DNA of 64,000 nucleotides from Pedobacter puniceum. Lineage in GTDB: Bacteria > Bacteroidota > Bacteroidia > Sphingobacteriales > Sphingobacteriaceae. Below are positions 3,146-38,580 of the stretch, piece by piece. Where the stretch lies: positions 1,240,001 through 1,304,000 of the forward strand of contig NZ_WKJI01000001.1 in the NCBI RefSeq assembly GCF_009674685.1. The letters run 5' to 3'. A model generated the notes under the pieces. It did no database searches. It was not told the origin of the DNA and saw only the letters and a list, made by a program, of their open reading frames with translations. Every line of letters begins with the position of its first letter. The stretch's first letter is position 1. The translations under genes were made by a program, and so were the position numbers.

Positions 3146-4441
3146 TCAACTTTTAACGCCCACTTCGCTTCGCTTCCATCCAAAAAATAAGATGATGATA
3201 AAGCAAAAGAAAGGAATAAGATAACCTATTTGTATATTATCTCCATTATAATCTATTACTGTACCCATTAAATAAGGCAAAATAGCACCACCAACAATAG
3301 ACATTATAAGCCAAGATGAACCGGGTTTTGTTTCTTCTCCAAGATTGGTAATACCTAAAGAAAAAATGGTTGGAAACATAATAGACATTAAAAAACCAAT
3401 GATTCCTAAAGCGTAAATCACGAAAATACCTTGCGTAGTAACAGCTAACAAACACATCAGCGCTGCTAAAACCGCATATAAGGACAATAATTTACGTGGT
3501 GTAGTATATTTTAAAAAGAAAGTACCTACAAACCTACCAGCCATAAATAAGAAGCCATAAATGGTTAAATAGTAAGCTGCTGATTTTTCATCTAAACCAG
3601 CGCCTTGCTGCGCCATTCTGATAAAAAAGCTGGTTACACATACTTGCGCACCTACATAAAAGAATTGTGCTATAACCGCCCATCTTAAATGGCGATGTTT
3701 TAGGACTGCAAAAAATCCGGTTTTGGCTTTTTCTTCTTTACTTGGCTTTATTTCTGGGAAATGGATAAAATAAAACAAAACAGCAACCAAAATTACGATG
3801 ATACCTAATACCAAATAAGGAGTTTTAACTGCTGCTGCTTCAGAAAATAAATAGCTCATTTTTTCGCTCTTTGGCATATCCGCTAGCTGCGCTGCTGTAT
3901 ATTCTTTTCCAGATAATATAAAGTTTGCGCCAATAATAGGCGCTACCATAGCTGCCAACCCGTTAAATGATGCAGCTAAGTTTAATCGGGTTGTTGCCCC
4001 TTCTGGCTTACCTAAGATGGCGGCATAAGGGTTTGCTGCTGTTTCTAAAACGGTTAAACCGCAACCAATAATAAACAAAGCAATTAAGAAAATACTGTAT
4101 GATAGCGTATTTGCAGCCGGAATAAACAAAAATGCTCCCATTGCAAATACCAATAAACCTATAATCATACTGGCTTTATAGCCAAATTTTCTGAGCATCA
4201 TTCCGGCTGGAATAGCCATTAAAAAATAAGCTAAAAAAATAGAGGTATCTATTAAAGTAGACTGTCTGTTATTTAGCTGACAAGCTTTTTTTAAGTGCGG
4301 AATCAAGATAGAATCCAAATTATGAGCCATCCCCCATAAAAAAAACAAACACACTATTAAGATAAAAGGCAATACATAGTTTTGTTTTGATCCTTCACTT
4401 TGGCTTAATACCGATGACTGATTTACTGAGTTCGTATTCAT
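3146..4441 (-). CDS. FucP-like sugar:proton symporter (MFS)
   Basis: The 431-residue protein has about 12 membrane helices and resembles the L-fucose:H+ symporter branch of the major facilitator superfamily, seen in LFFLWGMAHNLDSILIPHLK near residue 33, the helix-rich ETAANPYAAILG segment in helix 5 and NLAASFNGLAAMVAP in the next helix. It should import a sugar or sugar derivative across the inner membrane. It is the last gene of operon A, one base after the MaoC gene, so the substrate is probably whatever GH78/GH2 release and the CoA-linked enzymes process. Substrate specificity (fucose, galactose, glucose, rhamnose-like) cannot be read from sequence. Confidence 0.88.
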   Translation of the reverse strand: MNTNSVNQSSVLSQSEGSKQNYVLPFILIVCLFFLWGMAHNLDSILIPHLKKACQLNNRQSTLIDTSIFLAYFLMAIPAGMMLRKFGYKASMIIGLLVFAMGAFLFIPAANTLSYSIFLIALFIIGCGLTVLETAANPYAAILGKPEGATTRLNLAASFNGLAAMVAPIIGANFILSGKEYTAAQLADMPKSEKMSYLFSEAAAVKTPYLVLGIIVILVAVLFYFIHFPEIKPSKEEKAKTGFFAVLKHRHLRWAVIAQFFYVGAQVCVTSFFIRMAQQGAGLDEKSAAYYLTIYGFLFMAGRFVGTFFLKYTTPRKLLSLYAVLAALMCLLAVTTQGIFVIYALGIIGFLMSIMFPTIFSLGITNLGEETKPGSSWLIMSIVGGAILPYLMGTVIDYNGDNIQIGYLIPFFCFIIILFFGWKRSEVGVKS

Positions 4442-4442
4442 A

Positions 4443-4889
4443 TCAAACAGATTTTCTTTTTACCAATAAGATATGATCACACACCAAAACTACCTCGCCA
4501 TGTTGATTAATAACCTCTACATGTTCTGTAACGTTACCATATTCGGGCTTTTTAGCATCAGATTTGGCAGAAATGGTAATTTCTGAATGGATGGTATCGC
4601 CAATAAAAACAGGCTTAATAAATCTTAACCTATCATAACCTTTAGACATCGCCTCAGGGTTTATTTCCGAAGCTGTTAAGCCAATACCAATGCTAAATAT
4701 CATGGTACCATGCGCAATACGCTGCTTAAAAGGCTGTGTCTTACACCATTCTGCATCCATATGGTGCGGAAAAAAATCTCCGGTATGCCCTGCATGAACT
4801 ACAAAATCTGTCTCGGTAATGGTTCTACCTAAGGTTACTCTTTTCTCTTCTAATTGGTAATCCTCAAAAAAAATCGACTTAAAATACAT
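4443..4889 (-). CDS. MaoC-family hydratase/dehydratase
   Basis: The 148-residue single hot-dog domain is a normal length for MaoC-like enoyl-CoA hydratases. The hydratase-2 motif GDxNPxH is present as GDFFPHH (Asp38 and His43 keep the catalytic pair, the Asn is replaced by Phe40), followed by RIAHGTM. The family hydrates or dehydrates acyl-CoA thioesters in the cytoplasm. In operon A it sits between the Gfo/Idh/MocA gene and the MFS permease, and together with two CoA-transferases upstream it suggests that a CoA-bound hydroxy acid is processed. The exact substrate is unknown; the Asn-to-Phe change may mark a substrate subclass. Confidence 0.85.
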
Positions 4890-4890
4890 A

Positions 4891-5037
4891 TTTAGTTGTT
4901 AGGTGGTTAGGTATTAGTTGGTTAGTTTGTTAGGTGGTTAGTTGTTAGTTTGTTAGACAATAAGTGCTTTAGACAGCGGTCATCGGACTTTTCACTATCC
5001 ACCTCAGACAGCGGTCATCGGTCCTCGGTCATCGGAC
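4891..5037. repeat. Extragenic repeat family, copy 2, plus GACAGCGGTCATCGG direct repeats
   Basis: The gap between the MaoC start and the oxidoreductase stop is filled with two kinds of repeat. Bases 4891-4956 hold several TTAGGTGGTTAG / TTAGTTGGTTAG units. Then AGACAGCGGTCATCGG occurs exactly at 4971-4986 and 5006-5021, with a partial third copy (CTCGGTCATCGGACT) at about 5024-5037. No gene or promoter was recognised in it. Confidence 0.7.
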
Positions 5038-5040
5038 TCT

Positions 5041-6084
5041 TTACTTTAAACTCACTTCATAAGCTTTCTCTACCAGCATCATGGTTTGGAAAACGTCTTC
5101 TACGCTAGTGGGTAAAACCTTAGTTTCTCCGTTTTTATAGCGCATGAGGCTAGACATGGTACCAATAAAAGCATCGGGAAACCAAGAACCTTCTAAATTG
5201 ATACTTTTCCATTCTGGTGCTTTTTCGTCTTCTAATAAGCAATATTCAAAAACATCGGGTACACCATTAGGATAATCCATTAACAAACCCATTTTAGCTT
5301 TTATAGCTCCTTTAGTACCTTCCCATTTAATAAAGCTTTCTTGATGATGCGGGCCAAAAGCATGATCGTGGTTGGTATTGATAACTGAGTGTAACGTATC
5401 GCCATAATCCAAAATAATGGTAGAACGAGATGAGGATAACTTCTTTGCAGGATGTTTTAAAGTTTTAGCTAAAACACCTTTTGGGTTACCTAAAAAAGAG
5501 CGCATTAAATCTATATAATGAATACTATGGTATTGGATTTCTAAACGTGGGTGCACCATCACATGCGGAAATAACTCCCAAGGTGTTTCTACGGTTACCC
5601 TGACCTCCATATCGTATAAATCGCCTAAGAAACCTTTTTCTATAAGATATCTGGCTGCACTTACATAAGGTGCAAAACGCAACTGGCAGTTGATGGCCGC
5701 TACCAAATTCTTCTTTCTACAAACTTCTAGGATATCTTGTGTTTGCTGGATATCATCGCCCATAGGCTTTTGTATCAGAACAGCGCTACCGTCTGGCAAT
5801 TGTTCTAAGATACTGATATAACTTTCGGGCATGGTTGTAATATCATAAACCGCATTTGAAGGCGCTTTAGCTACTGCATCAGCAACAGAATCATAAACAT
5901 TAGGAATATGAAAATCTTGCGCTACCTGCGCCGCTCTTTCCCTGGTACGATTGGTAATTCCTACAACCTCAAAACCTGCTTTTTTATAGGCAGGTAAATG
6001 GGCATCTTTTACAATTCCGCCTGCACCAATCATAATGATGGGCAACTTTTTTTGAGGTAATATAGGATGATATTGAATATCCAT
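5041..6084 (-). CDS. Gfo/Idh/MocA-family oxidoreductase
   Basis: This 347-residue protein has an N-terminal Rossmann fold (PIIMIGAGGIVKDAHLPAY, residues 15-33) that binds NAD(P), the EKP-type motif as QKP at 105-107 (Lys106 kept), and a C-terminal alpha/beta substrate domain with HSIHYIDLMRSFLG. It should oxidise or reduce a sugar or sugar-acid ring carbon in the cytoplasm. It has no signal peptide. It lies in operon A, 30 bases after the SBP-like gene ending at 6115, and before MaoC. Such enzymes can make 3-keto sugars, which would set up elimination chemistry, but that role is inferred. Confidence 0.88.
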   Translation of the reverse strand: MDIQYHPILPQKKLPIIMIGAGGIVKDAHLPAYKKAGFEVVGITNRTRERAAQVAQDFHIPNVYDSVADAVAKAPSNAVYDITTMPESYISILEQLPDGSAVLIQKPMGDDIQQTQDILEVCRKKNLVAAINCQLRFAPYVSAARYLIEKGFLGDLYDMEVRVTVETPWELFPHVMVHPRLEIQYHSIHYIDLMRSFLGNPKGVLAKTLKHPAKKLSSSRSTIILDYGDTLHSVINTNHDHAFGPHHQESFIKWEGTKGAIKAKMGLLMDYPNGVPDVFEYCLLEDEKAPEWKSINLEGSWFPDAFIGTMSSLMRYKNGETKVLPTSVEDVFQTMMLVEKAYEVSLK

Positions 6085-6114
6085 ATCTATTAAATATTTT
6101 ATTTAATTAAAAAA

Positions 6115-7341
6115 CTATAAAATATTGATTGTATTTATTTTATGCTGAGTATCTTCTAGTAAAACTTTTACATCACTGGTAGTTGAACATGCTTTCACAA
6201 CCAACTCATCTATTAAGTTTGCAATGGCAGACCAATGCTTGCTTTGTGGCAACGTTTTAGCATGTTTATGCAACTCTTCTAACTTATGATAATAAGGAAT
6301 GATACGATTAACATCAGCATCTTGCCAGGTAGATTTTCTACAGCCAATACCCCCTTCTAAAGTGAGTAATTTATCTTGCTGAGCTTGGGTTGCATACTTC
6401 ACAAAAGCCAATGCTATATCCTGGTGTTTACTTCCTGTACCCACGGCATACATCCAATACACATTTAAAGAACAAGCTTCACCGTTGCCAACTTTGGGTA
6501 AGCCTGCTACATCAACCTTACCTTTAACTTTTGAGCTTTCTGAAACTTCACAAACAGCCGCAAAGCCAAACCAATTCACCATCATGGCTACCTCGCCACG
6601 GGCAAAAGCCTCACCTGCTTGTACAGATTCATATTGCGCTGATTGTGGATGTATAGCTTGATGATTCTTTAATAAATCTCTATAAAATATTAAACCATCA
6701 GCAGCTTCTGGGGTGTTAATTTGGATATTTCCATCTGCGTCAAGCAATTCACCTCCTCGGCTCCATAGCTGTAAACAAAAATCAAAAACGGTATTATGCC
6801 CATCAGGAAAAGCTGCTATCACAGTACCGTATAAATTATCCTCAGGTCTTTGAAAAAATTCGGCTATTTCTATAAAATCATCCCAGCTTAGGGGCACTTT
6901 TAAATCCTTACCATACAAGTCTTTAAACTTTTGCTGCTCTTGCGGAGATTCAAATAAATCTTTACGATATATTAAGCACTCAGGTCCATCATGAAAAGGC
7001 AAACCCAATAATTTACCATCAAACTGTTGAATATCTAATAAAGAGTTACTCCATACAGCAAGCTCTTGCTTATTTAGAGCAGGTTTAATATCTGCTATAG
7101 CATTAGCTGTATAGGCTTCTAATAACCAATCGGTTACTAAATGTGCTGAATCCCAGTTTCCATTTTTTAAGCCTTCATTAGTGATTAATTCATGATGCAA
7201 TTCGGGTAAGTCCATTGCTATAAACTCGGCCTCAAGCTTACAACCTGTTGCTACGCAAAAGCTTTCCCAAATCTTTTGCATACTGCGCTCAAAAGGTTCA
7301 AACTTTCTTACCGCAAACCTAAACTTGTTTGTATTACTCAT
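6115..7341 (-). CDS. Solute-binding-protein-like protein without signal peptide (copy 1)
   Basis: The 408-residue fold resembles family 1 extracellular sugar-binding proteins: [15 protein letters not shown], the [15 protein letters not shown] segment, [16 protein letters not shown] and [14 protein letters not shown] are typical SBP segments. The N-terminus ([20 protein letters not shown]) carries no hydrophobic leader or lipobox, so it should stay in the cytoplasm. There is no ABC permease or ATPase gene anywhere in the window. It overlaps the CoA-transferase gene upstream by 8 bases, so translation is coupled. It may bind a cytosolic sugar or acyl-CoA intermediate, but no function is demonstrated for such leaderless members. 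Confidence 0.8.
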
Positions 7342-8479
7342 TTGATAACTCTTTTATAATCTTAGCATTATCTTGCCCTAATGCAGGTGACGCTTTCGCT
7401 GATGTTAATAGCTGACCATCCATACGAATAGGGCAACGCGTGGTTTTATAAGAGAAACCATCTAACATGGTAACCTCTTGCAGCATCTCTAAAGCTTTAA
7501 AACCATCATGGGCCATTAACTTATCCCAGGTTAAAACATCTGCACACCAAATATCTGCTGGCTCTAGTACAGATAGCCATTTTTCTGTTGTATCTGTCTT
7601 CAAATGCGAGGCTAAAACCGCTTTTATTTCATCTCTCTTATCAAAAGCCTCTGCAGTTTCTTGATAGGCTAGCAAGGCATCGCAGCTTAATAAATTACCT
7701 AAAACTGGTATTTGCCCCATAGCTAAAGCTAACCATCCGTTTTGGGTTTGATATATCCCGTAAGGAGCGCCTAAATAAGCATGAGCATTGTTACTAGCTG
7801 TTCTTTGTGGTAACTGTCCGCCATCTCTGTTAAAAGTAGTAATAGCTTCAAACTGGAAATCAAAAGCGGTTTCTAGCATACTTACCTGTACCAAAGCCCC
7901 CATACCACTTATAGCCTTCTTTACCAAACAAGCCAATAAACCATTTGCTAAGTTTGCCCCTGCCAGCATATCTATGATAGATAAACCCATAGGAACAGGA
8001 CCATCATCAGCATCGCCACTTAACCAAGTTAAACCACTTAAAGATTGTAGAAGTAAATCTTGTCCCGGGTTACCTTTCCAAATGCCATCGGTACCGTAAC
8101 CCGATATTTCACCATAAACCACCTGCGGGTTTTGGGCTTTTACGCTTTCATAATCAAAACCTAGTCTTTCCATAACGCCAGGTCTGAAATTATGCATCAC
8201 CACATCGGCTTTGCGTATTAATTTCCAAATCCACTCGCGGTCTTTTTCATCTTTAATATCTACAGCAAAGCTTTCTTTATTTCTGTTAATAGCATGAAAA
8301 ACAGAAGATTCTCCGTTTAAAATAACGTTGGAAGTATATAAATGCCTGCAAATATCTCCTGTTTCTGGTCGTTCTATTTTAATAACCCGAGCACCTAAAT
8401 CGGCCAAGCGCAAACTTGCTGACGGACCAGAAAGAAACTGACTAAAGTCTACAACTAAATAATCTTTTAAAGGCATCAT
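7334..8479 (-). CDS. CaiB/BaiF class III CoA-transferase (copy 2)
   Basis: The 381-residue protein matches the class III CoA-transferase family along its length: [22 protein letters not shown] at the N-terminus, [36 protein letters not shown], and the catalytic Asp170 in [11 protein letters not shown]. The enzyme transfers CoA between carboxylic acids through an aspartyl-CoA intermediate in the cytoplasm. It overlaps the first CoA-transferase by 4 bases (ATGA) and the SBP-like gene by 8, so the three are translated together. It is clearly a paralogue of its neighbour and the two may form a heterodimer, since the family makes interlocked dimers. Substrates are unknown. Confidence 0.9.
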
Positions 8480-9618
8480 AAGTTAAATTCCTGATTTATA
8501 GCTACTGTATGCGCACCAGCTTTAGGAGCTGCTTTTGCTGAAAATAATTTTTGACGATTGATTTGAATAGGACTTCTGGTGCTGGTTAATGGTGTGCCAT
8601 CTGGCAAATCTAGCTGTTGCTGCATATCCAGAATCTTATAAGCTTCGTGGTTTAGAATTTCCTGATAATTATAAACCTTAGAACACCATATTTTTTGCTC
8701 TTCAAGGATGAATATCCAAGCATCGGTTTCTTTTTTAATGAGCTGCTGGGCTATTAAAGTATTGATTTCATCTCGCTTAGTAAACCAATCTTCTTTTTTG
8801 CTGTAAGCTGATAAATCTACACCTAAAACCTCTCCTAAATGCCATAAATTACCCATAGCTAAAGTAATGTAGCTATCAGCAGTTTGGTATATCCCGTAAG
8901 GAGCGCTCAAATAGGCGTGTCCATTTCCTTTAACCGAGCTTCTATCAGGGAGTTTTCCTCCGTCATTTAAATAACTGGTTAAAACTTCAAATTGCACATC
9001 TAGGATAGATTCCATCAGGCTAACTTCTACCAAAGCACCTGTTTGGGTTTTAGCTCTTCTGATTAAAGCGGCCAAAATACCTTGGCATAAATGAGCACCA
9101 CAAACCATATCGGCGACAGCTAAACCAAAGGGAACAGGGCCTTTTTGTTTTGTACCAGAAAGCCAGGTTAAACCTGATAAAGACTGGATTAATAAATCTT
9201 GCCCCGGTTTGTTTGCCCAAGGACCTTTATTGCCGTAACCCGTTACTATGGCGTAGATAACTTTAGAATTAAGCTTTTTTACCTGCTCATAATCTAAACC
9301 TATTTTCTCCATCACTCCCGGACGAAAGTTATGGGTAATGATATCTGCCTGCTGAATAAGCTTTTTGATGCGCTCTAAATCTTCAGGATTTTTCAAATCG
9401 GCGGCGTAAGACTCTTTATTACGGTTAATGGTATGAAAAACTAAGCTATCACCATCTATAAATAGATTCTTAATAGCAATTTGCCTACCCGCCTCGCCTT
9501 TTACGGGGCGTTCTATTTTGATGACACGAGCACCTAAATCGGCCAGTTTTAAACCAGCCGATGGCGCTGCCATAAACTGTGCAAATTCTAACACCAATAA
9601 GCCTTCTAGTGGTTTCAT
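8476..9618 (-). CDS. CaiB/BaiF class III CoA-transferase (copy 1)
   Basis: At 380 residues and collinear with the following gene, this CoA-transferase shares long blocks with it ([34 protein letters not shown]). The catalytic aspartate is Asp170 in [10 protein letters not shown]. Both active sites look intact, so this is not a catalytic/inactive pair. It starts 1 base after the SBP-like gene ending at 9620 and overlaps the second copy by 4 bases. In operon A, downstream of a sugar-acid dehydratase, it could activate a sugar-derived carboxylate as a CoA ester. That is inference from context, not from known members. Confidence 0.9.
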
Positions 9619-9619
9619 A

Positions 9620-10780
9620 TTAAGCCTTCTCTAGATTTTTAGATTGGATATATAACTCGTTTAAAGCTCCTAAAACAGCTTTTTCATTGCCACCGTTTAA
9701 CAAATAATTTCTAACAATATCACCAGCATGGTCTTGAAAATACATATGCCCTTGGTAACGTGGCCTTAAATAAGCCCTTTGTAAGGTTGGCAAGGTATTT
9801 TTAAAATATTGATGAGATGCATTGTTGGTATGCTCACTTTCCCAAGCTTTTAAATGCCCAGGCTGCCCTCCATTATCAAAAAATAAAAATTCTTGTGTAT
9901 TTGGTTGAGCTGTAAACTCGGCATATTTAACCGCTTCATGGATGTATTTTGATGATGATGAAACAGCCAAGCCCGTACCACCTAAAGAAGTAATTAAATG
10001 ACCATAATCTTCTAAACTTACTGTATCATGAAAATGAAGTAAGTTGGCTGCATAACCATTTCTTGAATAGTTAGAATAACCATAAGCAAAAGGACAATAA
10101 GCTATTTGATTGGTATTTACCATGGTTTCATAAACCTGAATAGGGTTTTTATCAAAGAAAGAACGGTCTATCCTATCGCTTAAGCTTTTAAATAATTGTA
10201 GAGCCTTCGTACCAGTTTCTGCGCTAATTACAACATCGTCTTGTAAGCATGGGTTTTCACCTAGCGTTGCACAAAAACCATAAAAAGCCATCAAAACATC
10301 AATAGGAATAAGTGCAAAAGCTACCAAACCTTTATCGGCTAAAGCCAAAACATCATTAAAAGTTTTAGGCAAGCTTAAACCTTGCTGCGCTAATAAATCT
10401 GGTCTGCTTGACGCTACGGGAGTTGCTGCATCTATAGCTAAAGCCCATTGCTTGTCATTAAAATTATAGCTTTCGTGAGAGCGGCCAACCGAATTTTCCT
10501 CTTGGTCTTTGATGAAGGCAGCTGGCAAATAATCATCTAAAGGAAGGATAGATTTTGTACCCGCAGCAAAGCCCGCCCATGGATGGTCGATCACCAATAA
10601 ATCGTATTTTTCTGCCAGCTGTTGGATAGACATATCTGCAAACTGTTGTAAAGAACGTTTTTCCCAAATGATATCTACATCGGGATAAAGTTCTGTAAAA
10701 CGTTGGGCTGTGGCTACAACAGATGTAAAGCCTCTACTATGGTTCCAAGTTATTCCTTTTAATATTTTCTTAGTGGACAT
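9620..10780 (-). CDS. Solute-binding-protein-like protein without signal peptide (copy 2)
   Basis: The 386 residues start MSTKKILKGITWNHSRGFTS with no signal sequence. The segments ATAQRFTELYPDVDIIWEKR and YDLLVIDHPWAGFAAG match the opening of family 1 sugar-binding proteins, and LGGTGLAVSSSSKYIHEAVKYAEF matches their C-terminal lobe. It is only distantly similar to the SBP-like protein at 6115-7341. It lies 29 bases after the GH2 gene and 1 base before the first CoA-transferase. As for the other copy, a cytosolic location and no ABC transporter make an import role unlikely. It may bind or deliver a pathway intermediate. Confidence 0.78.
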   Translation of the reverse strand: MSTKKILKGITWNHSRGFTSVVATAQRFTELYPDVDIIWEKRSLQQFADMSIQQLAEKYDLLVIDHPWAGFAAGTKSILPLDDYLPAAFIKDQEENSVGRSHESYNFNDKQWALAIDAATPVASSRPDLLAQQGLSLPKTFNDVLALADKGLVAFALIPIDVLMAFYGFCATLGENPCLQDDVVISAETGTKALQLFKSLSDRIDRSFFDKNPIQVYETMVNTNQIAYCPFAYGYSNYSRNGYAANLLHFHDTVSLEDYGHLITSLGGTGLAVSSSSKYIHEAVKYAEFTAQPNTQEFLFFDNGGQPGHLKAWESEHTNNASHQYFKNTLPTLQRAYLRPRYQGHMYFQDHAGDIVRNYLLNGGNEKAVLGALNELYIQSKNLEKA

Positions 10781-10809
10781 GTTTATTTCTTAAATTTCTT
10801 GAGGATGAG

Positions 10810-14145
<3,336 letters not shown>

Positions 14146-15219
14146 TTATACCTGTCTTAAGTACTCGTCTTTAAATTTGAAGCCCCATCCTGGCGTGTTA
14201 TGCGGTGTAGCCATGCCGTCTTTTATCTCTAAAGGATGATCAATAAGCGTGTCTATCCAATCGAAAGACTCGGCGCCAGCCCCATTAGAAATGGTACATA
14301 GTAAAGGGATATCGTAATCTTTATAATAATGTGGCAAAACGCTTACATTAAAACTTGCCGCAAGTGCAGCACTATTTCTCCAAGCTTCTACCCCACCTAA
14401 TCTTAAAATATCTGGCTGCCAAATATCAATGGCATTTCTTTGTAAAAGTTCTCTTAAAGGTGTTAAAGAGTACTCACGCTCTCCCATAGCAATAGAAATA
14501 CCTGCTTGATTTCTCAACAACTCAAAACCTTGATAATCATCATGTAAAATTGGCTCTTCAAACCAATTGATATGCAGGTTTTTAGCGGCTTGTGCTAGTT
14601 GTAAAGCATTGGCTACATTCATCCCTTGGTTGGCATCCATCATGATATTGATTTCGTTACCAACGGCTTCTCTAACCAATCTTAAGCGTTCTAAATCTTC
14701 TTTCCAATCGGGTTTACCTACTTTTATTTTAACGGCTTTAAAACCTCTGTTTTTGTATTGGGTAACTTCATCAATCAATTCATCGGGGCTGTAAGAAATC
14801 CAACCGCCACTACCATAAATTGGAATTTGTCTTTTAGATGCTCCTAAAACTTTCCAAACTGGCTGACCTAATATTTTAGCCCAGGCATCCCACATGGCAA
14901 TATTAAAAGCGCCTTGTGCCCAACGGTTTAAGCCCTCCATACCAAAATATTCGTTGGCATGGTTTAGTTTATCAAATACCTTTACGGTATCAAAAACCTT
15001 TTCTCCTAAAAGCAGTTCACCGGCATCTTTTAAAGCTCCAATAATGGCTTGAGGGTTGTATTGAAAGCTCAACAAATACGACTCGCCAATGGTACCATCT
15101 TTAAGACGGATACGTAAAACGATAAAAGAAATCTCTGTTAAAGTGTGTGTAGCATCTGCTATGGGCTTTTCTAGTTTAGCTTTAGCTGTAAAAACAGCAT
15201 AGCTTTTAATGGAATGCAT
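14146..15219 (-). CDS. Enolase-superfamily (mandelate racemase group) sugar-acid dehydratase
   Basis: In this 357-residue protein the capping domain is at the N-terminus and the barrel carries the whole active site: Lys164 and Lys166 (AVKIKVGK), metal ligands Asp195 (MMDANQG), Glu221 (WFEEPI) and Glu247 (GERE), and the Asp270/His297 dyad (QPDILRLGG and LPHYY) of the mandelate racemase subgroup. Such enzymes dehydrate aldonic or uronic acids to 2-keto-3-deoxy acids, or racemise them, in the cytoplasm. It is the second gene of operon A, between the two glycosidases. A dehydratase for rhamnonate, galactonate or fuconate would fit, but specificity cannot be assigned. Confidence 0.88.
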   Translation of the reverse strand: MHSIKSYAVFTAKAKLEKPIADATHTLTEISFIVLRIRLKDGTIGESYLLSFQYNPQAIIGALKDAGELLLGEKVFDTVKVFDKLNHANEYFGMEGLNRWAQGAFNIAMWDAWAKILGQPVWKVLGASKRQIPIYGSGGWISYSPDELIDEVTQYKNRGFKAVKIKVGKPDWKEDLERLRLVREAVGNEINIMMDANQGMNVANALQLAQAAKNLHINWFEEPILHDDYQGFELLRNQAGISIAMGEREYSLTPLRELLQRNAIDIWQPDILRLGGVEAWRNSAALAASFNVSVLPHYYKDYDIPLLCTISNGAGAESFDWIDTLIDHPLEIKDGMATPHNTPGWGFKFKDEYLRQV

Positions 15220-15225
15220 GCTAGA

Positions 15226-17427
15226 TTATAATTTGTATTTAATGATATATTCTTTGTTGGATGGGATGCTTAATTCGTAATAGTTTTGCCCAATTTGCTT
15301 AACGCTGATGCCTTTTGCTTGAGGTTTGGTTTTACTTTTCAGACGTAGTGTTCCTGTACCGCTATCTGCCTTAATTTTAATTTCTGATGTTGAACAGTAT
15401 AAACTGATATCGCCATTTGGTGTAGGTACTGTACCTTGCATCCATTGTAAGCCGCCCAGATGCGGTTCTACCAAATATTGCTGATAACCAGCTGTTAAGG
15501 GTTTTACACCTAAATAATACTTGCCTAAAAGGTAAACCGGACTAGCACCCCAAGAGTGGCAAAGGCTTTTACCAAACTCTCGGCCGTACATGGCATAATG
15601 CTCTGTATCTTTTTTACTAGGATTATACTCTTCCCAAAATGAGGTAGCGCCTAATTTTAGCATGCCGCCCCAATAGTTTTTCATCTCTTTCATCACATAA
15701 TCATGCTCGCCCATAGCACATAAAGCTTCAAGCTCGTAAAAACGCATATAAGGCGTCATGATTTTCTGGATTTTATCATTTAGCAAGACATTCTTCTTTA
15801 CCCCTTCTTTTTGTTGAGCGTTTAAGTAATCAAAGAAAATAGCAAACATATTAGCATAGCGGGTTACATTTTCTGTTTGCTTGCCATCTATCCTGCTGTG
15901 TACAATAGCTTGTTTATCCGCGTTCCAATAGCTATTGAAAAACTTGGTTTTAAGCTGCATTGCTTCATTTTTATAATATGCTGATGCCTTATCATCGGCT
16001 GCTAAATCTGCACATAAAGCGATGGTTTCTAAACTTCTGCATAAAAGCAATTGCTCAAAACTTACTTCACCTTGTTTGCTTAAACCATCTGCCCAGTCAA
16101 TAAAAATCCAATCGCCGGAAAGACCTTGCATAAAGCCGTTTTGGTTTCTACGCTGTAAGCAAAAATCCATTAAGCTTTTCATTTTAGGATAAACTAAGTT
16201 GATAAATTGCTTATCTCCAGTGTATTGGTAATAATCTTGAATGCTTAAGAACCAATAAAAGGTATAATCCATAATGGTATTGATATGGCTAGTAACGGGG
16301 TCTTTACCTCTTAAAGCCAAAATGGTTCTTCTTACGCTGGCTTCATCAAAACCTAAATAATAGTTCATTAAATAGCTTTGGTAAGCATCTCCACTCCACA
16401 TCCATCGGTCACGCTTAATGCCATCAATAAAAAACTCACGTGTGGTAAGTTCCATGGTGTATTTAGAAACTTGCCATATTTTATTAAGTTCGGCATCAGA
16501 AGAAGTGAAAGTACCTCTGTCTTTAACAGGCAAATACTCGTACAACATAGAAACCGAATCAAGCTTTACCGCTGCATCTGTTTCTACCTGTACATATCTG
16601 AAAGCTTTAGAGAGTTGCAAGGTAGAATCCTGAGCTTTAGTCAGGTTAACATCTACAAAATCAAAGGTTTCGCATTTTTGCGAACTTAAAGCTTCTTCTT
16701 TAGACTCGCCATAATAAATTCTTAACTGCCCATTTCCTTTTAAACCATGTAGTTTGATAAATCCGAAAGTTTCCTCTCCAAAATCTATCAATCTGGAAGC
16801 ACCTTTAACATCTGTTTTAATAGCATATTTAGGTTTAATACTTAGCTTAAAAGTTGAAGGTTTTTGATTGGGCAAATTGAAATTCCATGTCCCTGCATTT
16901 ACATAGGTTGTACCAGAAGCATCAGAAGCTTTTCCTGTTTCATCTATCCATTCTTTATCCTCAAAAGTTGCTAACCAAGAAGCGTCAGTTTTTACAGTTT
17001 TTCCATTGATGTAAATAGCCGGAACTTTATCCTGTGCATAAACTTTGATATTGATTTTCTGCTTTCCGGCTGCTAATTGTAATTTTTTAGGATAACCAGA
17101 AAGCATTTTCCCGTTCAGCTTTACATTGTATTGTCCTTCTGTAAAAAGCTCTATTTCTTCGGGCTGCGTAAGATTAAATTCTTTATGAAATTCTACCAAA
17201 ACATAATGACTATCCATACGCCAGAACGGTGGAAAGAAAGTACCACGCTCTGTTCTTCTGTTTTGCATTTGGTTGCTTAACCAAACTTCAAAATCTCCGG
17301 GATACCATATCCAAGTGGCTTGTGTAGTTTTATTTTGTGCTTGTACTTTAGAACTGAATAGAAAGCCATTTAATAAGCACATACATGCGAAACAGCTTAA
17401 TAAAAGTCTTTTGTAGAAAATTTGCAT
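15226..17427 (-). CDS. GH78-like alpha-L-rhamnosidase, exported
   Basis: The 733-residue protein has a signal peptide (residues 1-31, ending KVQAQ), an N-terminal beta-sandwich region and an (alpha/alpha)6 barrel starting near residue 305. DGIKRDRWMWSGD at 335-347 is the general-acid region of the GH78 family, and a C-terminal beta domain follows. It should release alpha-L-rhamnose in the periplasm. It is shorter than the GH78 at 38577-41339 (920 residues) and only distantly similar. It is the first gene of operon A, 57 bases downstream of the -7-like box and 102 bases from the shared operator motif. Confidence 0.82.
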   Translation of the reverse strand: MQIFYKRLLLSCFACMCLLNGFLFSSKVQAQNKTTQATWIWYPGDFEVWLSNQMQNRRTERGTFFPPFWRMDSHYVLVEFHKEFNLTQPEEIELFTEGQYNVKLNGKMLSGYPKKLQLAAGKQKINIKVYAQDKVPAIYINGKTVKTDASWLATFEDKEWIDETGKASDASGTTYVNAGTWNFNLPNQKPSTFKLSIKPKYAIKTDVKGASRLIDFGEETFGFIKLHGLKGNGQLRIYYGESKEEALSSQKCETFDFVDVNLTKAQDSTLQLSKAFRYVQVETDAAVKLDSVSMLYEYLPVKDRGTFTSSDAELNKIWQVSKYTMELTTREFFIDGIKRDRWMWSGDAYQSYLMNYYLGFDEASVRRTILALRGKDPVTSHINTIMDYTFYWFLSIQDYYQYTGDKQFINLVYPKMKSLMDFCLQRRNQNGFMQGLSGDWIFIDWADGLSKQGEVSFEQLLLCRSLETIALCADLAADDKASAYYKNEAMQLKTKFFNSYWNADKQAIVHSRIDGKQTENVTRYANMFAIFFDYLNAQQKEGVKKNVLLNDKIQKIMTPYMRFYELEALCAMGEHDYVMKEMKNYWGGMLKLGATSFWEEYNPSKKDTEHYAMYGREFGKSLCHSWGASPVYLLGKYYLGVKPLTAGYQQYLVEPHLGGLQWMQGTVPTPNGDISLYCSTSEIKIKADSGTGTLRLKSKTKPQAKGISVKQIGQNYYELSIPSNKEYIIKYKL

Positions 17428-29606: not shown

Positions 29607-31199
29607 TTAATGCCCATTAAAAACAATGTACAAAGTCACCATCACCACCATCAATAAAACCCAAGCTATTTTTACCTTTTTAGAAGTAATCTCTCCTGCG
29701 GAGACATCAACCAAGCTGGCATTATAAGCTACAGGATTTCTATCTAACAATGATGTAAAGATTGCAGCAAGTAATAAAATGACAAAAGTGTAGAAAGACA
29801 ACATCAGATAATGTGGCCAGAATTGGTATTGGTCTGATGGGAAAATCCATAGATAACACACCCCAACGCCTAAACTAAAAATAGATCCTGCGGATAGCGT
29901 TAGATTTACAGCTAAGCGAGTGGTTCTTTTCCAAAACACAGTAAGTAAAAAAACCACAGATAATGGCGGGGCTATAAAACCTAATACCGATTGAAATACA
30001 TCAAAAAGATTTAAACCTTTAATACTATCTATAGCTAAAGCTACCGCAACGGCAAGCACACAACCAAAAATTACGGTTATTCTTCCCATTTTAATGAGCT
30101 CTTTTGTGCTGGCATTGGTGTTGATTTTCTTGGCATAAACATCCATCGTAAAAACGGTACTTAATGAGTTTAACGAAGAGCCAATAGTACCTACCAAAAC
30201 TGCTATTAAAACAACAATCACCAAACCATTCATCCCCGGAGGGAAAAGGTTGGTAACCATGGTCATGTAAGCTTCATTAGGATCTTTTAAACCCGGAAAT
30301 AAAATATAACAAAGTATCCCCGTAAGGATAAATAAGGGTAAGGATAAGATTTTTAGCCAGCCAATAAAATTTACCCCCAATTGCCCCTGCTCTAAACTTT
30401 TTGCTCCTAAAACAGATTGAACCATGGCCTGATCTGTACAGAAAAAAGCAATTGCCGCTACCGGATAACCTAATAAAATTGCATACCAAGGATATTTAGG
30501 ATCACTTGCTGGTTGTACTAAATTCCAATAATGGCCAGGTACTGCATGATAAACTTCCTTAATACCGCCAACTTTTATAATGCCCAAAATGGCTAGGGTA
30601 AGAGAAACGCCTATCAGTAAAATCATTTGAAAAACGTTTACTTTAGCAATGGCTTTTAAACCTCCCATAAAAGCAAAAAGCCCCGCAAACAATACCAAAA
30701 CGATAACAGATTGCCACATGGGGATGCCTAAAATTTGTCTTACTAGAAAGCCTCCGGCAAATAAACCTAGAGAAAGCCATGAGATTAAAATTTTTATAAG
30801 TGCATACCAAGCCAATATATTTTGGGTAGATGATCCGTAACGGTTTCCCATAAACTCGGGCATGGTACTAACCTTAGCAGCCAAATATTTGGGGGCAAAT
30901 ACCACAGCCAGTAAAAATAGAAATACAAAAGCATACCAATCAAAATTTACGGCTACAATACCGGTGCTATAACCAATACTAGCAAAGGCTAATAACATAG
31001 AAGGCCCTACGTTTGTACCCCACATATTAAACCCAATACTTGGCCATTTTAAAGATTTCTGAGCTAGAAAAAGTGTTTCATCTTCATCTGTTTTATTTTT
31101 AGAAAAACTAGCTCTATAACCGATAACCATTAAAATAACAAGGTAAACGATAACGATAGCGTAATCCAATAAGGTTAAACGCTCTATGATATTGCCCAT
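29607..31199 (-). CDS. Sodium:solute symporter (SGLT-like)
   Basis: The 530-residue protein has about 14 membrane helices with the SSS-family plan: MWGTNVGPSMLLAFASIGYS in helix 2, FAGLFAFMGGLKAIAKVNVFQ in the middle and DQAMVQSVLGAKSLEQGQ. It should import a sugar or uronide with sodium. It is the last gene of operon B, 81 bases after the Gfo/Idh/MocA gene, and presumably takes up the products of that operon's glycosidases. The substrate is inferred from context only. Confidence 0.87.
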   Translation of the reverse strand: MGNIIERLTLLDYAIVIVYLVILMVIGYRASFSKNKTDEDETLFLAQKSLKWPSIGFNMWGTNVGPSMLLAFASIGYSTGIVAVNFDWYAFVFLFLLAVVFAPKYLAAKVSTMPEFMGNRYGSSTQNILAWYALIKILISWLSLGLFAGGFLVRQILGIPMWQSVIVLVLFAGLFAFMGGLKAIAKVNVFQMILLIGVSLTLAILGIIKVGGIKEVYHAVPGHYWNLVQPASDPKYPWYAILLGYPVAAIAFFCTDQAMVQSVLGAKSLEQGQLGVNFIGWLKILSLPLFILTGILCYILFPGLKDPNEAYMTMVTNLFPPGMNGLVIVVLIAVLVGTIGSSLNSLSTVFTMDVYAKKINTNASTKELIKMGRITVIFGCVLAVAVALAIDSIKGLNLFDVFQSVLGFIAPPLSVVFLLTVFWKRTTRLAVNLTLSAGSIFSLGVGVCYLWIFPSDQYQFWPHYLMLSFYTFVILLLAAIFTSLLDRNPVAYNASLVDVSAGEITSKKVKIAWVLLMVVMVTLYIVFNGH

Positions 31200-31280
31200 T
31201 TTTGATTGTTTATTATAGCTTTATATTTATTAACGAGATCTTTTTTATTTCCAGACCTATTGTATGTAATCGTTTAAATC

Positions 31281-32351
31281 CTAAAGTACAAGACCATAGG
31301 TATCTAAAATATCTTTTATTTTAATTGGCGTACCTGTTTTTAAGGATTTATCCATGGCTTGTAATAAAGCTACGGTTCCTATCCCCTCTTGCATATCTGG
31401 GTAAGCTGTGAAGTTTTGCTCTATGCTATCAGCAAAGTATTCTAAATAGTTTTGATACTCGCCCGCATGGTGACTTTGCCCTTCAAAACGAAAGTAATAT
31501 TTTAAGGTACTATCGCCCCAAATGATTATTTTTTCTTCTCCTGTTTTATCGGTTACGGCATAGCGTAATTCGTGGTAATCTGCCTGGCTGGCTCCTTCTG
31601 TCCCTCTTAAAATGGTACTCATCCCGCTATCTCTTTGTGCAGGTTGCGTAGGGCCGGTATAGGCACCACTTACTCTGGCAATTCGCCCATCTGTAGCTTT
31701 AAAGATGAAGTGCATGGTGTCTTCATTTTTTAAGCCACCTTTTTTACCATTCTCGCTTAACATACCATAGCCCATCACTTCTTCTATGTTGGGTAAATAC
31801 CAACGTATAAAATCTACCGGGTGACTTAAACCTCCGTACAACCATTTAAAAGATGATTCTAAAGCCCAAGGCTTTTCTAAAAACCACCTATGGTCTGCAT
31901 GGTATTGCGCTTCTATGGTAATTAAATCTCCAATTAAGCCTGCTTCAAAATCTTTTCTTTGTCTTTTAGCAGGCTCGAAAAAACGAGAACTTTGTCCAAC
32001 AAATACTTTCTTGCCGCTTTGCTTACTTAATTCTAAAAGCTCTTTAGCATCAGCCAAATCATCAATAAATGGTTTGGTACAGATAACATGCTTACCATGC
32101 TTAAGTGCCATTTTCACATGTCCTGCATGTAATTTATCAGGCGTATAAATAGCAACGGCATCTATCTCCGCATCATTTAACATTTCCTGATAACTGGTAG
32201 TGTAATGATGAAAATCAAACTCTTTAGCTCTTTGTTTGCAAGCTTCCTCGCTTAAATCGCACATGGTTTTTAACTGCCACTTTTTGCTATTTAAAGCTGC
32301 TGATATGGTGCTTCTTCCTTCACCCAGTCCTAATATTCCTAGTTTTAACAT
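31281..32351 (-). CDS. Gfo/Idh/MocA-family oxidoreductase
   Basis: The 356-residue protein has a Rossmann nucleotide-binding start (LGILGLGEGRST), the EKP-type motif as TKP at 92-94 (Lys93 kept), and the usual substrate domain with YGGLSHPVDFIRWYLPN. It is cytosolic, with no signal peptide. It is only distantly related to the operon A enzyme. Gaps of 104 bases upstream (filled by an extragenic repeat) and 81 bases downstream suggest it may have its own expression level. It likely oxidises a sugar or inositol-like ring from operon B products. Confidence 0.88.
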   Translation of the reverse strand: MLKLGILGLGEGRSTISAALNSKKWQLKTMCDLSEEACKQRAKEFDFHHYTTSYQEMLNDAEIDAVAIYTPDKLHAGHVKMALKHGKHVICTKPFIDDLADAKELLELSKQSGKKVFVGQSSRFFEPAKRQRKDFEAGLIGDLITIEAQYHADHRWFLEKPWALESSFKWLYGGLSHPVDFIRWYLPNIEEVMGYGMLSENGKKGGLKNEDTMHFIFKATDGRIARVSGAYTGPTQPAQRDSGMSTILRGTEGASQADYHELRYAVTDKTGEEKIIIWGDSTLKYYFRFEGQSHHAGEYQNYLEYFADSIEQNFTAYPDMQEGIGTVALLQAMDKSLKTGTPIKIKDILDTYGLVL

Positions 32352-32369
32352 TGTCTAGTTTGTTGGTTT

Positions 32370-32415
32370 TTTTTAGTTGGTTAGTCCCGATAGCTATCGG
32401 GAGTTAGGTGGTTAA
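32370..32415. repeat. Extragenic repeat family, copy 4, with perfect palindrome
   Basis: TTAGTTGGTTAG and GAGTTAGGTGGTTA flank CCCGATAGCTATCGGG at 32386-32401, a perfect 16-bp palindrome. This is the cleanest copy of the family and lies between two operon B genes. It may form a cruciform or RNA hairpin that tunes downstream expression. Confidence 0.7.
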
Positions 32416-32455
32416 TTTATTGATTGGATTTTAGGGTCTTTTTACTTTATACTTT

Positions 32456-33148
32456 CTACTTTATACTATTAAAAAACACCCATGTTTCTCCTTTTGTGGT
32501 TCCGGCTATTCCTTCTTGATATTTACTCATGAGCTTGTTCCACTCGTTTACCCTAGGGTTATTTTGTGTAGTTTTTGGGTTTAACTCGTCTAAAGTTTTT
32601 CCTTTCGGGATGCTGATGACCAACATCAATTGTCTGCCGTTTTTAAACAAAAGCAATTGTTGGAAACTGGCATTACAAAAGCCTTTTGAAACCTCTGGCC
32701 ACTCTTTAAACTGTGTAGCATGATATTTTAAATATTCGTTTTGTAAAGTAGTATCGGCTACTAAATTGGCTGTTAACAGGATGTGTTCCCAATCCCTAGC
32801 TGTAGTCGTATCGGTACAATAAGAACGGTTAAACTCATAAAACAAATCATCATATTGTTTAAGTTCTGCTTCGGGAAATCTCATTTTTAAGCTATCGTCC
32901 AAAGCGGAATCAAGGCCTTTTCCATAAACTACAAAATGCGTTTTCCATCTAAAAAGATGCTCATCTTCTTTCAATAAAGCTTTTAGCTGATTGATAGTCG
33001 CCTCGCTAGTATCCTGATAAAGCATTTCTATGATAGCTGGCTTTTGTACATCAGGCTTTTGCTTTGGAGATTGGCAAGCGTAAACTTGTACCATCATCCA
33101 AAAGGAAAAAACAAGGCTTATGTACTTAAAAAAACTACTTTTTAGCAT
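32456..33148 (-). CDS. Rhamnose-mutarotase-like lipoprotein
   Basis: I start at the ATG at 33148 (MLKSSFFKYISLVFSFWMM), giving 230 residues; an upstream TTG frame is unlikely. The leader ends in a lipobox (VYAC, Cys25). The C-terminal half, YHATQFKEWPEVSKG, then QLLLFKNGRQLMLVISIPKG and NKLMSKYQEG, fits the small L-rhamnose mutarotase (RhaM/DUF718) family. The region before it (IIEMLYQDTSEATINQL) may be a second, more divergent copy. Mutarotases are normally cytosolic, so an exported lipoprotein member is unusual and may bind or epimerise free rhamnose in the periplasm. It overlaps the beta-helix gene by 14 bases. Confidence 0.68.
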   Translation of the reverse strand: MLKSSFFKYISLVFSFWMMVQVYACQSPKQKPDVQKPAIIEMLYQDTSEATINQLKALLKEDEHLFRWKTHFVVYGKGLDSALDDSLKMRFPEAELKQYDDLFYEFNRSYCTDTTTARDWEHILLTANLVADTTLQNEYLKYHATQFKEWPEVSKGFCNASFQQLLLFKNGRQLMLVISIPKGKTLDELNPKTTQNNPRVNEWNKLMSKYQEGIAGTTKGETWVFFNSIK

Positions 33149-35060: not shown

Positions 35061-35061
35061 C

Positions 35062-37467: not shown

Positions 37468-37476
37468 GATGATGGA

Positions 37477-38580
37477 TTAATCGGCTTTAAAATTGATATT
37501 ACTTTTCCCTAAATCTTTGGATGTGGCCACGGCTATACCCCTATCACCAGCTTTATTAACAGCACAATAGAAATGATAAACAATGCCTTTATACTTTAAA
37601 ACCCAAGATTTATGGGCATATAATTCGTCGTAAGGTTCTGATGATTGTATTAGATTTTCGCCTTCCCAATCTGTCCAGTTCACTAAATCTTTAGAAGCTG
37701 CAAAACGGTTAAAAGCACCGTTTCTATCTTGCCAAAATGCCCCGAAATAGAACATCACGTAAGTATCTCCCATTTTTTGAATAACACCATCTCCGGTAAT
37801 TCCTACCGGATGATGAACTACCGGATTTTTCTGAAAACGCTTCCAATTAACCATATCGTCAGAAACAGCCATCCCAATACGCTCGTACCAACGGGTTTTC
37901 TTGTTATTTACTAAAGAATCTCCAACTGCGTTGTAATACATCACAAAACGATGTCCGGTTAAAAGCTTTTCATCTTCAATAACCGAGCTTTTAAATAACT
38001 TATTACGGTTTTCCCACCAGCGTACATCGGCATCAGATGAGCTTAAAACTGGCTTTGTTAATCTTTCCCATTCATGTGCTTTGCTTGGGTTTTTAGAAGT
38101 ATAAGCCATCCCGATTGACAAAGGCTCAGGCTCATAGCCTTTGCTGTTTCCTCCGAAATAAGACATCCAATATTTACCCTTGAAACGGTGTAGTTTATAA
38201 TTACCACCCCATTTGGTATCAACTAAAGCATTATAACCCGCTTTCTGGTGTGCATCCCAACGGTTATCATCACTAAAAGAAAGCTGCTTACCCAAAGTTT
38301 GCCATTGCAAAAGATTGGTGCTGCTAGCCAACCAAGTTTCATAACCTGTACCATCAAAAACCAAATAAGTCATGTACCACTTACCTGCTTTACGATAAAT
38401 GGTTGGGCAATCTATTTTTTTCTCTTTAGACGCTGTAGTGAGCACCAAACCATATTTGTATGGGGTTTTTACTGCTTCATAAATGGCTTGCATTTCTGCC
38501 TTTGAAACACTTTTATCTTGTGCTTTAAGCGCATTGATAGCAAAAATTATGGTGGTGATAAACAGACTTATTCTTCTCAT
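37477..38580 (-). CDS. Five-bladed beta-propeller glycosidase-like protein (GH43/GH32 clan)
   Basis: The 367-residue protein has a signal peptide (to about residue 20). KKIDCPTIYRKAGKWYMTYL is the first-blade Asp motif, and later blades show GNYKLHRFKGKYWMSYFG and MGDTYVMFYFGAFW. These fit the GH43/62/32/68/117/130 superfamily, but I cannot place the subfamily or confirm the other two catalytic acids. It overlaps the GH78 gene by 4 bases, and the two are translationally coupled in operon B. Confidence 0.7.
   Translation of the reverse strand: MRRISLFITTIIFAINALKAQDKSVSKAEMQAIYEAVKTPYKYGLVLTTASKEKKIDCPTIYRKAGKWYMTYLVFDGTGYETWLASSTNLLQWQTLGKQLSFSDDNRWDAHQKAGYNALVDTKWGGNYKLHRFKGKYWMSYFGGNSKGYEPEPLSIGMAYTSKNPSKAHEWERLTKPVLSSSDADVRWWENRNKLFKSSVIEDEKLLTGHRFVMYYNAVGDSLVNNKKTRWYERIGMAVSDDMVNWKRFQKNPVVHHPVGITGDGVIQKMGDTYVMFYFGAFWQDRNGAFNRFAASKDLVNWTDWEGENLIQSSEPYDELYAHKSWVLKYKGIVYHFYCAVNKAGDRGIAVATSKDLGKSNINFKAD

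Follow-up and report, generated by a model that had tools for sequence, protein, structure and literature searches.

A conserved gene set joining CoA-transferases, a MaoC hydratase and leaderless solute-binding-fold proteins: a candidate branch of deoxysugar catabolism

The non-phosphorylative L-fucose/L-rhamnose pathway uses a mutarotase, an L-fucose dehydrogenase, a fuconolactonase, a fuconate dehydratase, a 2-keto-3-deoxy-fuconate dehydrogenase and an FAH-type hydrolase, and to our knowledge it includes no CoA-transferase, MaoC hydratase or solute-binding protein (SBP). The itaconate and mesaconate CoA pathways are defined by a CoA-transferase, a MaoC hydratase and a lyase. For deoxyribonate oxidation, the passage that we draw on mentions an unknown glyceryl-CoA hydrolase (PMC9007349). 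Here, we examine a 64,000-nucleotide stretch of the Pedobacter puniceum genome (the window; contig NZ_WKJI01000001.1, positions 1,240,001 to 1,304,000), in which one operon encodes two class III CoA-transferases of the CaiB family (Cai1 and Cai2), a MaoC hydratase, a Gfo/Idh/MocA dehydrogenase, a sugar permease and two SBP-fold proteins that carry no export leader (SBP1 and SBP2). The core of this operon is a candidate for an undescribed sugar-degradation route within deoxysugar gene clusters of plant and algal breakdown, found in soil and marine bacteria and in a salt-loving archaeon. We put the chances at about even that it forms a CoA-thioester branch of (deoxy)sugar-acid catabolism located in the cytosol, where the SBP-fold proteins would hold or act on an intermediate. 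In the literature searched (open-licence PubMed Central), we recognised neither a description of this module nor such a role for an importer fold.

The operon and its conserved core

The operon consists of ten minus-strand open reading frames (ORFs) at positions 3146-17427, which are transcribed in the order GH78-like, enolase, GH2, SBP1, Cai1, Cai2, SBP2, Gfo/Idh/MocA, MaoC and FucP. By coordinate, they are:

3146..4441, minus strand: FucP-like MFS sugar:H+ symporter (MFS_1; TIGR00885 fucP, 381.4 bits against a cut-off of 280.4)
4443..4889, minus strand: MaoC hydratase with conserved Asp38/His43 (PF01575)
5041..6084, minus strand: Gfo/Idh/MocA dehydrogenase with QKP lysine 106 and H189/D192 (PF01408)
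6115..7341, minus strand: SBP2, leaderless SBP-fold protein with HDGPE and DGHN motifs (PF01547/PF13416; PDB 6dtq, E 9e-25)
7334..8479, minus strand: Cai2, class III CoA-transferase with Asp170 (PF02515, 319.8 bits)
8476..9618, minus strand: Cai1, class III CoA-transferase with Asp170 (PF02515, 310 bits)
9620..10780, minus strand: SBP1, leaderless SBP-fold protein with TWxHxRG and DHP motifs (PF01547, 37.2 bits, cut-off 26)
10810..14136, minus strand: GH2 LacZ-type beta-galactosidase, apparently exported, variable cargo (NF052611, 969.5 bits, just under the cut-off of 999)
14146..15219, minus strand: enolase-superfamily acid-sugar dehydratase-like protein, variable cargo (PF13378/PF02746)
15226..17427, minus strand: GH78/rhamnosidase-like glycosidase, apparently exported, variable cargo (PF21209, PF17389)

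Pfam and NCBIfam scans agree with the family names that an earlier reading of the DNA letters (the sequence-only reading) had given to these ten genes. Its description of the genes as separated by tiny gaps or overlaps fits every junction but one: in transcription order, the spacings computed from coordinates are 6, 9, 29 and 1 bp, overlaps of 4 and 8 bp, and then 30, 151 and 1 bp, with the widest distance (151 bp) between Gfo/Idh and MaoC and all others at 30 bp or less. As had also been claimed, no ABC permease or ATPase gene was seen within the operon. The single PF00528 permease found genome-wide adjoins an NMT1-type protein and is not part of a sugar importer pair. Cai1 and Cai2 are the sole two PF02515 matches in the 3.9-Mb genome, and SBP2 is the sole PF13416 match in a genome-wide search that covered PF13416 rather than PF01547.

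Within the family Sphingobacteriaceae, SBP1 is present in 35 of 151 genomes, and CaiB (E 1e-60 or better) in 34, with two matches each. MaoC (E 1e-30 or better) occurs in exactly those 34, and G525 is the only family genome that has SBP1 without CaiB and MaoC (labels beginning with G denote genomes, and those with L denote loci or neighbourhoods). The CoA-transferase and SBP-like genes are therefore conserved together in 34 of the 35 SBP1-bearing genomes, the outcome on which the sequence-only reading had staked its interpretation (Fisher p ~5e-33 for co-occurrence over 151 genomes, shared ancestry ignored). Among genomes drawn from the phylum, SBP1 was found in 19 of 395.

Neighbourhoods were mapped in 42 of the 49 other SBP1-bearing genomes, giving 43 with the window, and their genes were counted by best BLAST label. 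Since two of them (L049, L050) nearly duplicate the window, the effective sample falls short of 43; many flanking ORFs are unannotated, with unlabelled ORFs in 31 of the 43. CaiB is labelled in 41 neighbourhoods (two copies each), MaoC and Gfo in 39 each, SBP2 in 33, FucP in 32 and RhaT in 6; in the seven unmapped genomes (G080, G465, G474, G509, G521, G529, G534), match coordinates place CaiB next to SBP1 in every case. Glycosidase labels are more varied, with GH2 in 20 neighbourhoods (some weak), GH106 in 15, GH78-like in 10, and GH141 and GH28 in 9 each, while the enolase-family gene is present in 4. We thus observe a core of SBP1-CaiB-CaiB-SBP2-Gfo-MaoC-permease, and the remaining genes are cargo. 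The sequence-only reading had made the enolase and the glycosidases part of the pathway, which does not hold because the former is found in 4/43 loci and the latter vary. SusC labels occur in 11/43 neighbourhoods and SusD labels in 9/43. The window's operon has no SusC/SusD label, and ORFs at 60.1-64.0 kb of the window are SusD/SusC-like by BLAST alone (26-27% identity), the SusC-like ORF having no Pfam match.

The core set appears to be more than a chance association because it is retained in relatives down to 48% SBP1 identity while the flanking genes change. The closest named records are from Pedobacter glucosidilyticus, with SBP1 98 and 93% identical (nearer records may have been omitted). 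Median gaps are -4 bp for SBP1-Cai1, 1 bp for Cai1-Cai2 and -1 bp for Cai2-SBP2, and protein distances among SBP1, Cai1 and Cai2 are closely correlated (rho 0.87-0.90). Correlations with the GH2 set, which is mixed and includes weak relatives, are 0.41-0.72. The set is retained even when non-contiguous: in G286, a rhamnose operon harbours SBP1, and the Cai-Cai-SBP2-Gfo-MaoC block is found on that contig at a distance of ~60 kb.

Regarding the cargo, the hydrophobic N-termini of the GH2 and GH78-like proteins were judged by eye. The nearest solved relatives of the enolase-family protein include 3,6-anhydro-L-galactonate cycloisomerase (5xd7) and L-talarate/galactarate dehydratase (2pp0), among others, and the protein scores below every NCBIfam cut-off among its matches.

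Occurrence outside the family

The search for the ordered set across Bacteroidota that had been proposed recovers the core, and the module, whole or in part, is not confined to this phylum. A protein search of plasmids with SBP1 returned 149 records, led by Sinorhizobium (90) and followed by Rhizobium, Ensifer, Azospirillum, Roseibium and others; among the 149 are Streptomyces (3), Persicobacter (2) and Rufibacter (1). Twenty plasmid loci (L092-L111) were hand-picked for diversity, L095 for its MaoC, and L116 and L117 were taken from an SBP2 search; in the high-GC loci L097, L099, L100, L102 and L111, missed SBP1 or crotonase genes were supplied from deposited annotation or a direct Pfam scan. 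In 12 of the 13 loci chosen by SBP1 (L099-L111; deposited annotation or labels), CaiB is at most three genes away from SBP1; L101 is the exception. In L096, SBP1 is in two pieces and is likely a broken or frameshifted copy. The Rufibacter and Persicobacter plasmids bear the Bacteroidota-type cassette.

Elsewhere, the module appears in several architectures. In the first (A), CaiB-SBP1 sits beside an L-fucose-type cluster, which in L092, L097 and L103 includes IclR, an ABC importer, RhaM, Gfo, MaoC, a short-chain dehydrogenase/reductase (SDR), FAH, L-fuconate dehydratase and an amidohydrolase; exceptions are L098, without adjoining SDR, FAH and fuconate dehydratase, and L102, without FAH. The second (B; L099, L100) combines an aldose-1-epimerase family protein, SDR, CaiB, SBP1 and crotonase, with an FAH-type gene in L100, and it is resembled by L107 (SDR, CaiB, SBP1, crotonase, an FAH-type gene, an aldehyde dehydrogenase and an ABC importer). 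In a third form (L106:6520-13119, plus strand), a TRAP importer precedes CaiB-crotonase-SBP1, with a MaoC-domain gene upstream; to judge from the importer type, an acid may be among the compounds taken up.

Two distant SBP2 relatives were found on plasmids, one from Croceibacterium (43%) and one from Halostagnicola (39%). The former, an alphaproteobacterium, has the arrangement SBP1-CaiB / CaiB-MaoC-ABC importer-SBP2-Gfo-beta-galactosidase-fucosidase. In the latter, a haloarchaeon (L117), SBP2 lies between MaoC and a directly preceding AMP-binding CoA-ligase-type gene that scores below all equivalog cut-offs, and MaoC is followed by Gfo, RhaM, an amidohydrolase, a fucosidase and an ABC importer. 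SBP1 was looked for in this archaeal stretch and not found. At the DNA level, Cai2 had no match in E. coli genomes, a result of little weight.

The solute-binding-fold proteins

In agreement with the sequence-only reading, neither SBP1 nor SBP2 of the window has an N-terminal hydrophobic segment. By best 12-residue mean hydrophobicity, no leader is seen in 43/43 SBP1 (maximum 1.48) and 33/33 SBP2 (maximum 1.05), and 14 transporter SBPs from the same clusters score 1.62 to 3.10. The 43 SBP1 and 33 SBP2 were trimmed to start 12 residues ahead of the first motif, and some open frames extend upstream of the trimmed start (e.g., L056, L071, L077), which we take as mechanical; 15 further leaderless members with untrimmed annotated starts agree (maximum 1.09). 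The L116 and L117 clusters hold a leadered transporter SBP beside the leaderless one, and in the Halostagnicola control, SBP2 is leaderless and the start of the transporter SBP is twin-arginine lipoprotein-like by eye. Judged from these N-termini, SBP1 and SBP2 look cytosolic, and the export and ABC pairing that would have spoken against the sequence-only reading were not seen. It is highly improbable that the two proteins are exported in an unrecognised manner to work with a distant ABC importer: they match importer SBPs in fold and Pfam family, but they have no leaders (starts trimmed to motif as above), the genome's one PF00528 permease lies next to an NMT1-type protein, and the clusters of L116 and L117 have their own leadered transporter SBP.

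An SBP1 profile (24 members) matches 1eu8, a trehalose/maltose-binding protein, with E 1e-19, and the DHP and IDA segments of SBP1 align to residues of 1eu8 that we take to contact the sugar. Ten residues (T11, W12, H14, R16, G17, W39, D60, D65, P67 and D117) are invariant in 62/62 SBP1, and a 24-member alignment from the same loci has 32 invariant columns. In SBP2 from Bacteroidota, an alphaproteobacterium and an archaeon, DGHN is conserved in 5/5 and HDGPE in 4/5 (HNGPE in Persicobacter), whereas these motifs occur in 0/4 leadered ABC SBPs. SBP2 is 28% identical over 303 residues to a leadered SBP from a rhizobial L-fucose cluster and is closer to importer SBPs than is SBP1; BLASTP detects no relationship between SBP1 and SBP2 (E 0.19).

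This conservation across phyla is enzyme-like, and it could mean that one or both proteins are enzymes in which the binding cleft has been re-used for lactone opening, epimerisation or elimination on a sugar-derived intermediate. Consistent with this, the five loci whose cassette includes an amidohydrolase (L064-L067, L090) all lack SBP2. The conserved residues may, however, merely bind a fixed ligand, and SBP2 coexists with an amidohydrolase in L117 and with a beta-propeller lactonase in L104, while L052-L059 have an amidohydrolase in a neighbouring divergent cluster. We consider catalysis by these proteins possible but doubtful, and the simpler proposal that SBP2 is a lactonase substitute is weakened by L104, L117 and L052-L059.

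SBP folds are also ligand-triggered switches, and an IclR label is present in 12/43 Bacteroidota neighbourhoods and 12/20 plasmid loci. The two proteins could accordingly have a ligand-sensing or regulatory role alongside the CoA-transferases or nearby IclR regulators, standing outside the chemistry. This is unlikely, in that SBP1 is coupled to CaiB rather than to a regulator and is retained with differing regulators (LacI in L100, IclR in L092), each cassette has two distinct SBPs, and no DNA-binding or kinase domain was matched in the Pfam scan.

CoA chemistry, substrate context and known systems

Asp170 is found in both CoA-transferases of the window, which had been called intact, and in 103/103 aligned members. 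MaoC retains D38 and H43 in 49/49 aligned members each, and Gfo/Idh retains K106, H189 and D192 in 50/50. The catalytic role of these residues is our assumption from the respective families; because they are invariant, the CaiB, MaoC and Gfo enzymes look intact. The solved chain nearest to MaoC is 4ffu (E 4e-63), presumably a structural genomics entry from Sinorhizobium meliloti that the PDB listing names "oxidase." The accompanying hydratase can differ: L061 and L062 have SBP1-CaiB with a crotonase and no MaoC label in the stretch, and a crotonase adjoins SBP1-CaiB in L099, L100, L107 and L111. Together with the CoA-ligase-type gene of the archaeon, this alternation points to CoA-ester chemistry and is the best evidence for it. 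No dehydratase of the enolase, IlvD or UxuA type was noticed beside the sets of L100 and L107 (three large L107 ORFs being unscanned, with no deposited annotation), which suggests that CaiB and the hydratase may fill the dehydratase slot.

The CoA genes might instead handle an acyl substituent freed from the polysaccharide, such as acetate, hydroxycinnamate or another acid, with the sugar genes as mere neighbours. Plant cell-wall loci do carry esters, and we observe an acetylxylan esterase and a sialate O-acetylesterase by L094, a GDSL hydrolase by L116, and a thiolase, an AMP-binding gene and an aromatic dioxygenase nearby on the other strand in L103. Yet sugar permease, dehydrogenase, mutarotase, lactonase and FAH genes recur with the module in three bacterial phyla and an archaeon, and SBP folds suit sugar-like ligands. 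No esterase is found among the labelled genes elsewhere, a weak point given the unlabelled ORFs in 31/43 loci. On this evidence, the acyl-substituent explanation is improbable.

Deoxysugar genes near the module include FucP/RhaT, RhaM, a fuconolactonase-like amidohydrolase, fuconate dehydratase, FAH, fucosidases (GH141/GH29) and rhamnosidases (GH106/GH78). By gene content, the context is that of 6-deoxyhexoses, with other sugars in the second architecture. Two replacement scenarios were rejected. A TIGR02629 match is present in 34/34 cassette genomes and 61/117 others (E 1e-40 or better, yet below the curated cut-off in every genome), the opposite of what is expected if the cassette replaced L-rhamnose isomerase. 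Replacement of the whole L-fucose pathway in the window's genome is likewise at odds with a conventional set elsewhere in that genome. A strong L-fucose isomerase match (PF02952, E 1e-46 or better) shows no difference between cassette genomes (3/34) and others (6/117; p 0.42). A shorter Fucose_iso_C relative (~470 aa, E 1e-26 to 1e-29) occurs in 9/34 cassette genomes and 1/117 others (p 5e-6, uncorrected for phylogeny); it is found in G400, G405, G421, G428, G435, G448, G457, G474 and G505, and also in G424.

In the proposed pathway, a FucP/RhaT-type symporter (an ABC or TRAP importer in other hosts) would import a 6-deoxyhexose-like sugar or an acid thereof, which Gfo/Idh (SDR in the second architecture) would oxidise to the aldonolactone or acid, with a lactonase acting where encoded. 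The one or two CoA-transferases would shift CoA from a donor ester onto the sugar acid and regain it from the product acid, while MaoC or crotonase would add or remove water at C2-C3 of the CoA ester, and the product would enter the known 2-keto-3-deoxy-acid steps (SDR, FAH-type hydrolase). Both SBP-fold proteins would have lost export and act in the cytosol, SBP1 clamping a sugar-acid, lactone or CoA-ester intermediate by the CoA-transferase and SBP2 doing so by the dehydrogenase, or both would be catalytic. The substrate, the reaction order, the CoA-ester intermediate and the role of the SBPs are all inferred. The sequence-only reading, in which a sugar is imported, oxidised, dehydrated and turned over as a CoA ester, is thus partly supported: the context of deoxysugar import and oxidation with CoA-type enzymes stands, and its order of steps and CoA-ester intermediate are conjectural.

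A more specific version would make this a widespread, undescribed CoA-thioester pathway for sugars refractory to acid-sugar dehydratases, for example O-methylated 6-deoxyhexoses such as 2-O-methyl-L-fucose. There, once the sugar acid is a CoA ester, MaoC or crotonase could remove water even though the 2-hydroxyl is not free; hydration of the enol ether so formed, with loss of methanol, would yield a 2-keto-3-deoxy acid for the known fucose route, the SBP-fold proteins serving as cytosolic catalytic or substrate-presenting subunits. We regard this version as a long shot.

Several observations weigh against the CoA-thioester branch. The window's genome appears to handle plain L-rhamnose and L-fucose by other means: elsewhere, it carries rhamnose-isomerase, RhaD-type and RhaT-like genes together, and an L-fucose set of FucP, RhaM, GD_AH dehydratase, SDR, FAH hydrolase and L-fucose dehydrogenase. 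In the latter, the L-fucose dehydrogenase (409 bits) exceeds its cut-off of 300, while the FAH hydrolase (356 bits) and a lactonase (293 bits) fall under cut-offs of 500 and 400; the fuconolactonase-like gene lies apart from the set. Given these gene sets, the cassette is probably either dedicated to a related or modified deoxysugar or a parallel route. Rhizobial clusters hold L-fuconate dehydratase beside the module, so a CoA step would be unneeded there for plain L-fuconate. L060 and L106 hold both crotonase and MaoC, which are therefore not strict substitutes, and the Gfo/Idh and MaoC families are broad in substrate range. The distance correlations of SBP1 with SBP2 (0.81), MaoC (0.76), Gfo (0.75) and FucP (0.73) are lower than those with the CaiB pair, and SBP2 is missing in L064-L067, L087 and L090, whose sets are otherwise much alike. 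SBP1 occurs without an adjoining CaiB in L091, in a genome with no PF02515 match anywhere, and without CaiB in the 25-kb stretch of L101, and in both it adjoins mannonate-dehydratase-like genes. Finally, the AlphaFold2 model of SBP1 (from the window, L049 and L050 sequences) has a mean pLDDT of 44.5 and is too poor for use.

The mannonate-dehydratase-like neighbours (L091:9293-11475, minus strand; L101:9931-13164, plus strand) represent a second partner type for leaderless SBP1, and the idea that SBP1 needs CaiB is weakened by these two loci.

Other observations concern neighbouring sugar loci. The window's genome has two more FucP paralogues (L123, L124), one within the conventional L-fucose set with L-fucose dehydrogenase and the other adjoining the fuconolactonase-like gene, a zinc alcohol dehydrogenase and an aldo/keto reductase. 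A second pectin-type cluster lies at 29607-41339 of the window (minus strand), with an SSF symporter, Gfo/Idh, GH141, GH2, GH130-like and GH78 genes; a similar GH141-Gfo2-SSF set is found just upstream of the cassette in L085, L086 and L089. GH141 is a family of rhamnogalacturonan-II-type fucosidases. Two overlapping window ORFs (32456-33187 and 33135-35060, minus strand) each match the same GH141 protein of L085 (841 aa, with a RhaM domain in addition), and they are either a split gene or a frameshift. In L081 (17030-19662, plus strand), a RuBisCO-like protein and an SBD_N/NBD_C sugar-acid kinase are encoded directly downstream of the cassette permease, and the same labels occur in L083 and L084; the idea of a rare sugar raised by these genes has 3/43 loci behind it. 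A rhamnose operon in L063 (7798-9204, minus strand) encodes a 468-aa hydrophobic transporter-like protein with no Pfam, NCBIfam or PDB match.

If the CoA-thioester branch is real, it would add a CoA-dependent branch to the deoxysugar catabolism of plant- and alga-associated microbes and explain the recurring annotation "solute-binding protein" beside a CoA transferase. It would also show that importer SBPs have been relocated to the cytosol for metabolism, making the annotation "extracellular solute-binding protein" wrong for a family in several phyla. Given the co-occurrence, the function can be tested directly in experimentally amenable hosts, Sinorhizobium meliloti and Pedobacter among them.

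Of the described systems, the non-phosphorylative L-fucose/L-rhamnose pathway adjoins the module in many loci and has its permease family, mutarotase and lactonase in common with it, and a set of this type is present at other loci of the window's genome. Unlike that pathway, the window's cassette has no lactonase, FAH or mutarotase of its own and has only Gfo/Idh and the enolase-family protein. It also differs from a SusCD polysaccharide utilisation locus in its lack of a SusC/SusD label. Cai1 and Cai2 resemble the known class III CoA-transferases (formyl-CoA:oxalate, succinate-hydroxymethylglutarate and benzylsuccinate) in their full-length PF02515 domain and catalytic-type Asp, and the solved benzylsuccinate CoA-transferase 9fn0, with two different subunits (A and B), is a possible parallel for the pair. 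They nevertheless score far under every matched NCBIfam cut-off and are coupled to SBP-fold and sugar genes. The itaconate and mesaconate pathways likewise combine a CoA-transferase with a MaoC hydratase, and RipB/Ich is among the MaoC matches, but at 55.6 bits against a cut-off of 340, and the cassette has a sugar permease and dehydrogenase and no lyase gene. Deoxyribonate oxidation via a glyceryl-CoA step is a precedent for CoA chemistry in sugar-acid catabolism (PMC9007349); unlike the module, it involves no SBP-fold protein as far as the cited passage goes, a comparison of text rather than of gene sets. Lastly, SBP1 and SBP2 belong by sequence to the same family as the SBPs of ABC sugar importers (trehalose/maltose-binding protein, SmoF and MalE3), with PF01547 over its cut-off, but they differ from these in having neither a leader nor a permease pair, in being coupled to CaiB or Gfo, and in carrying motifs of their own.

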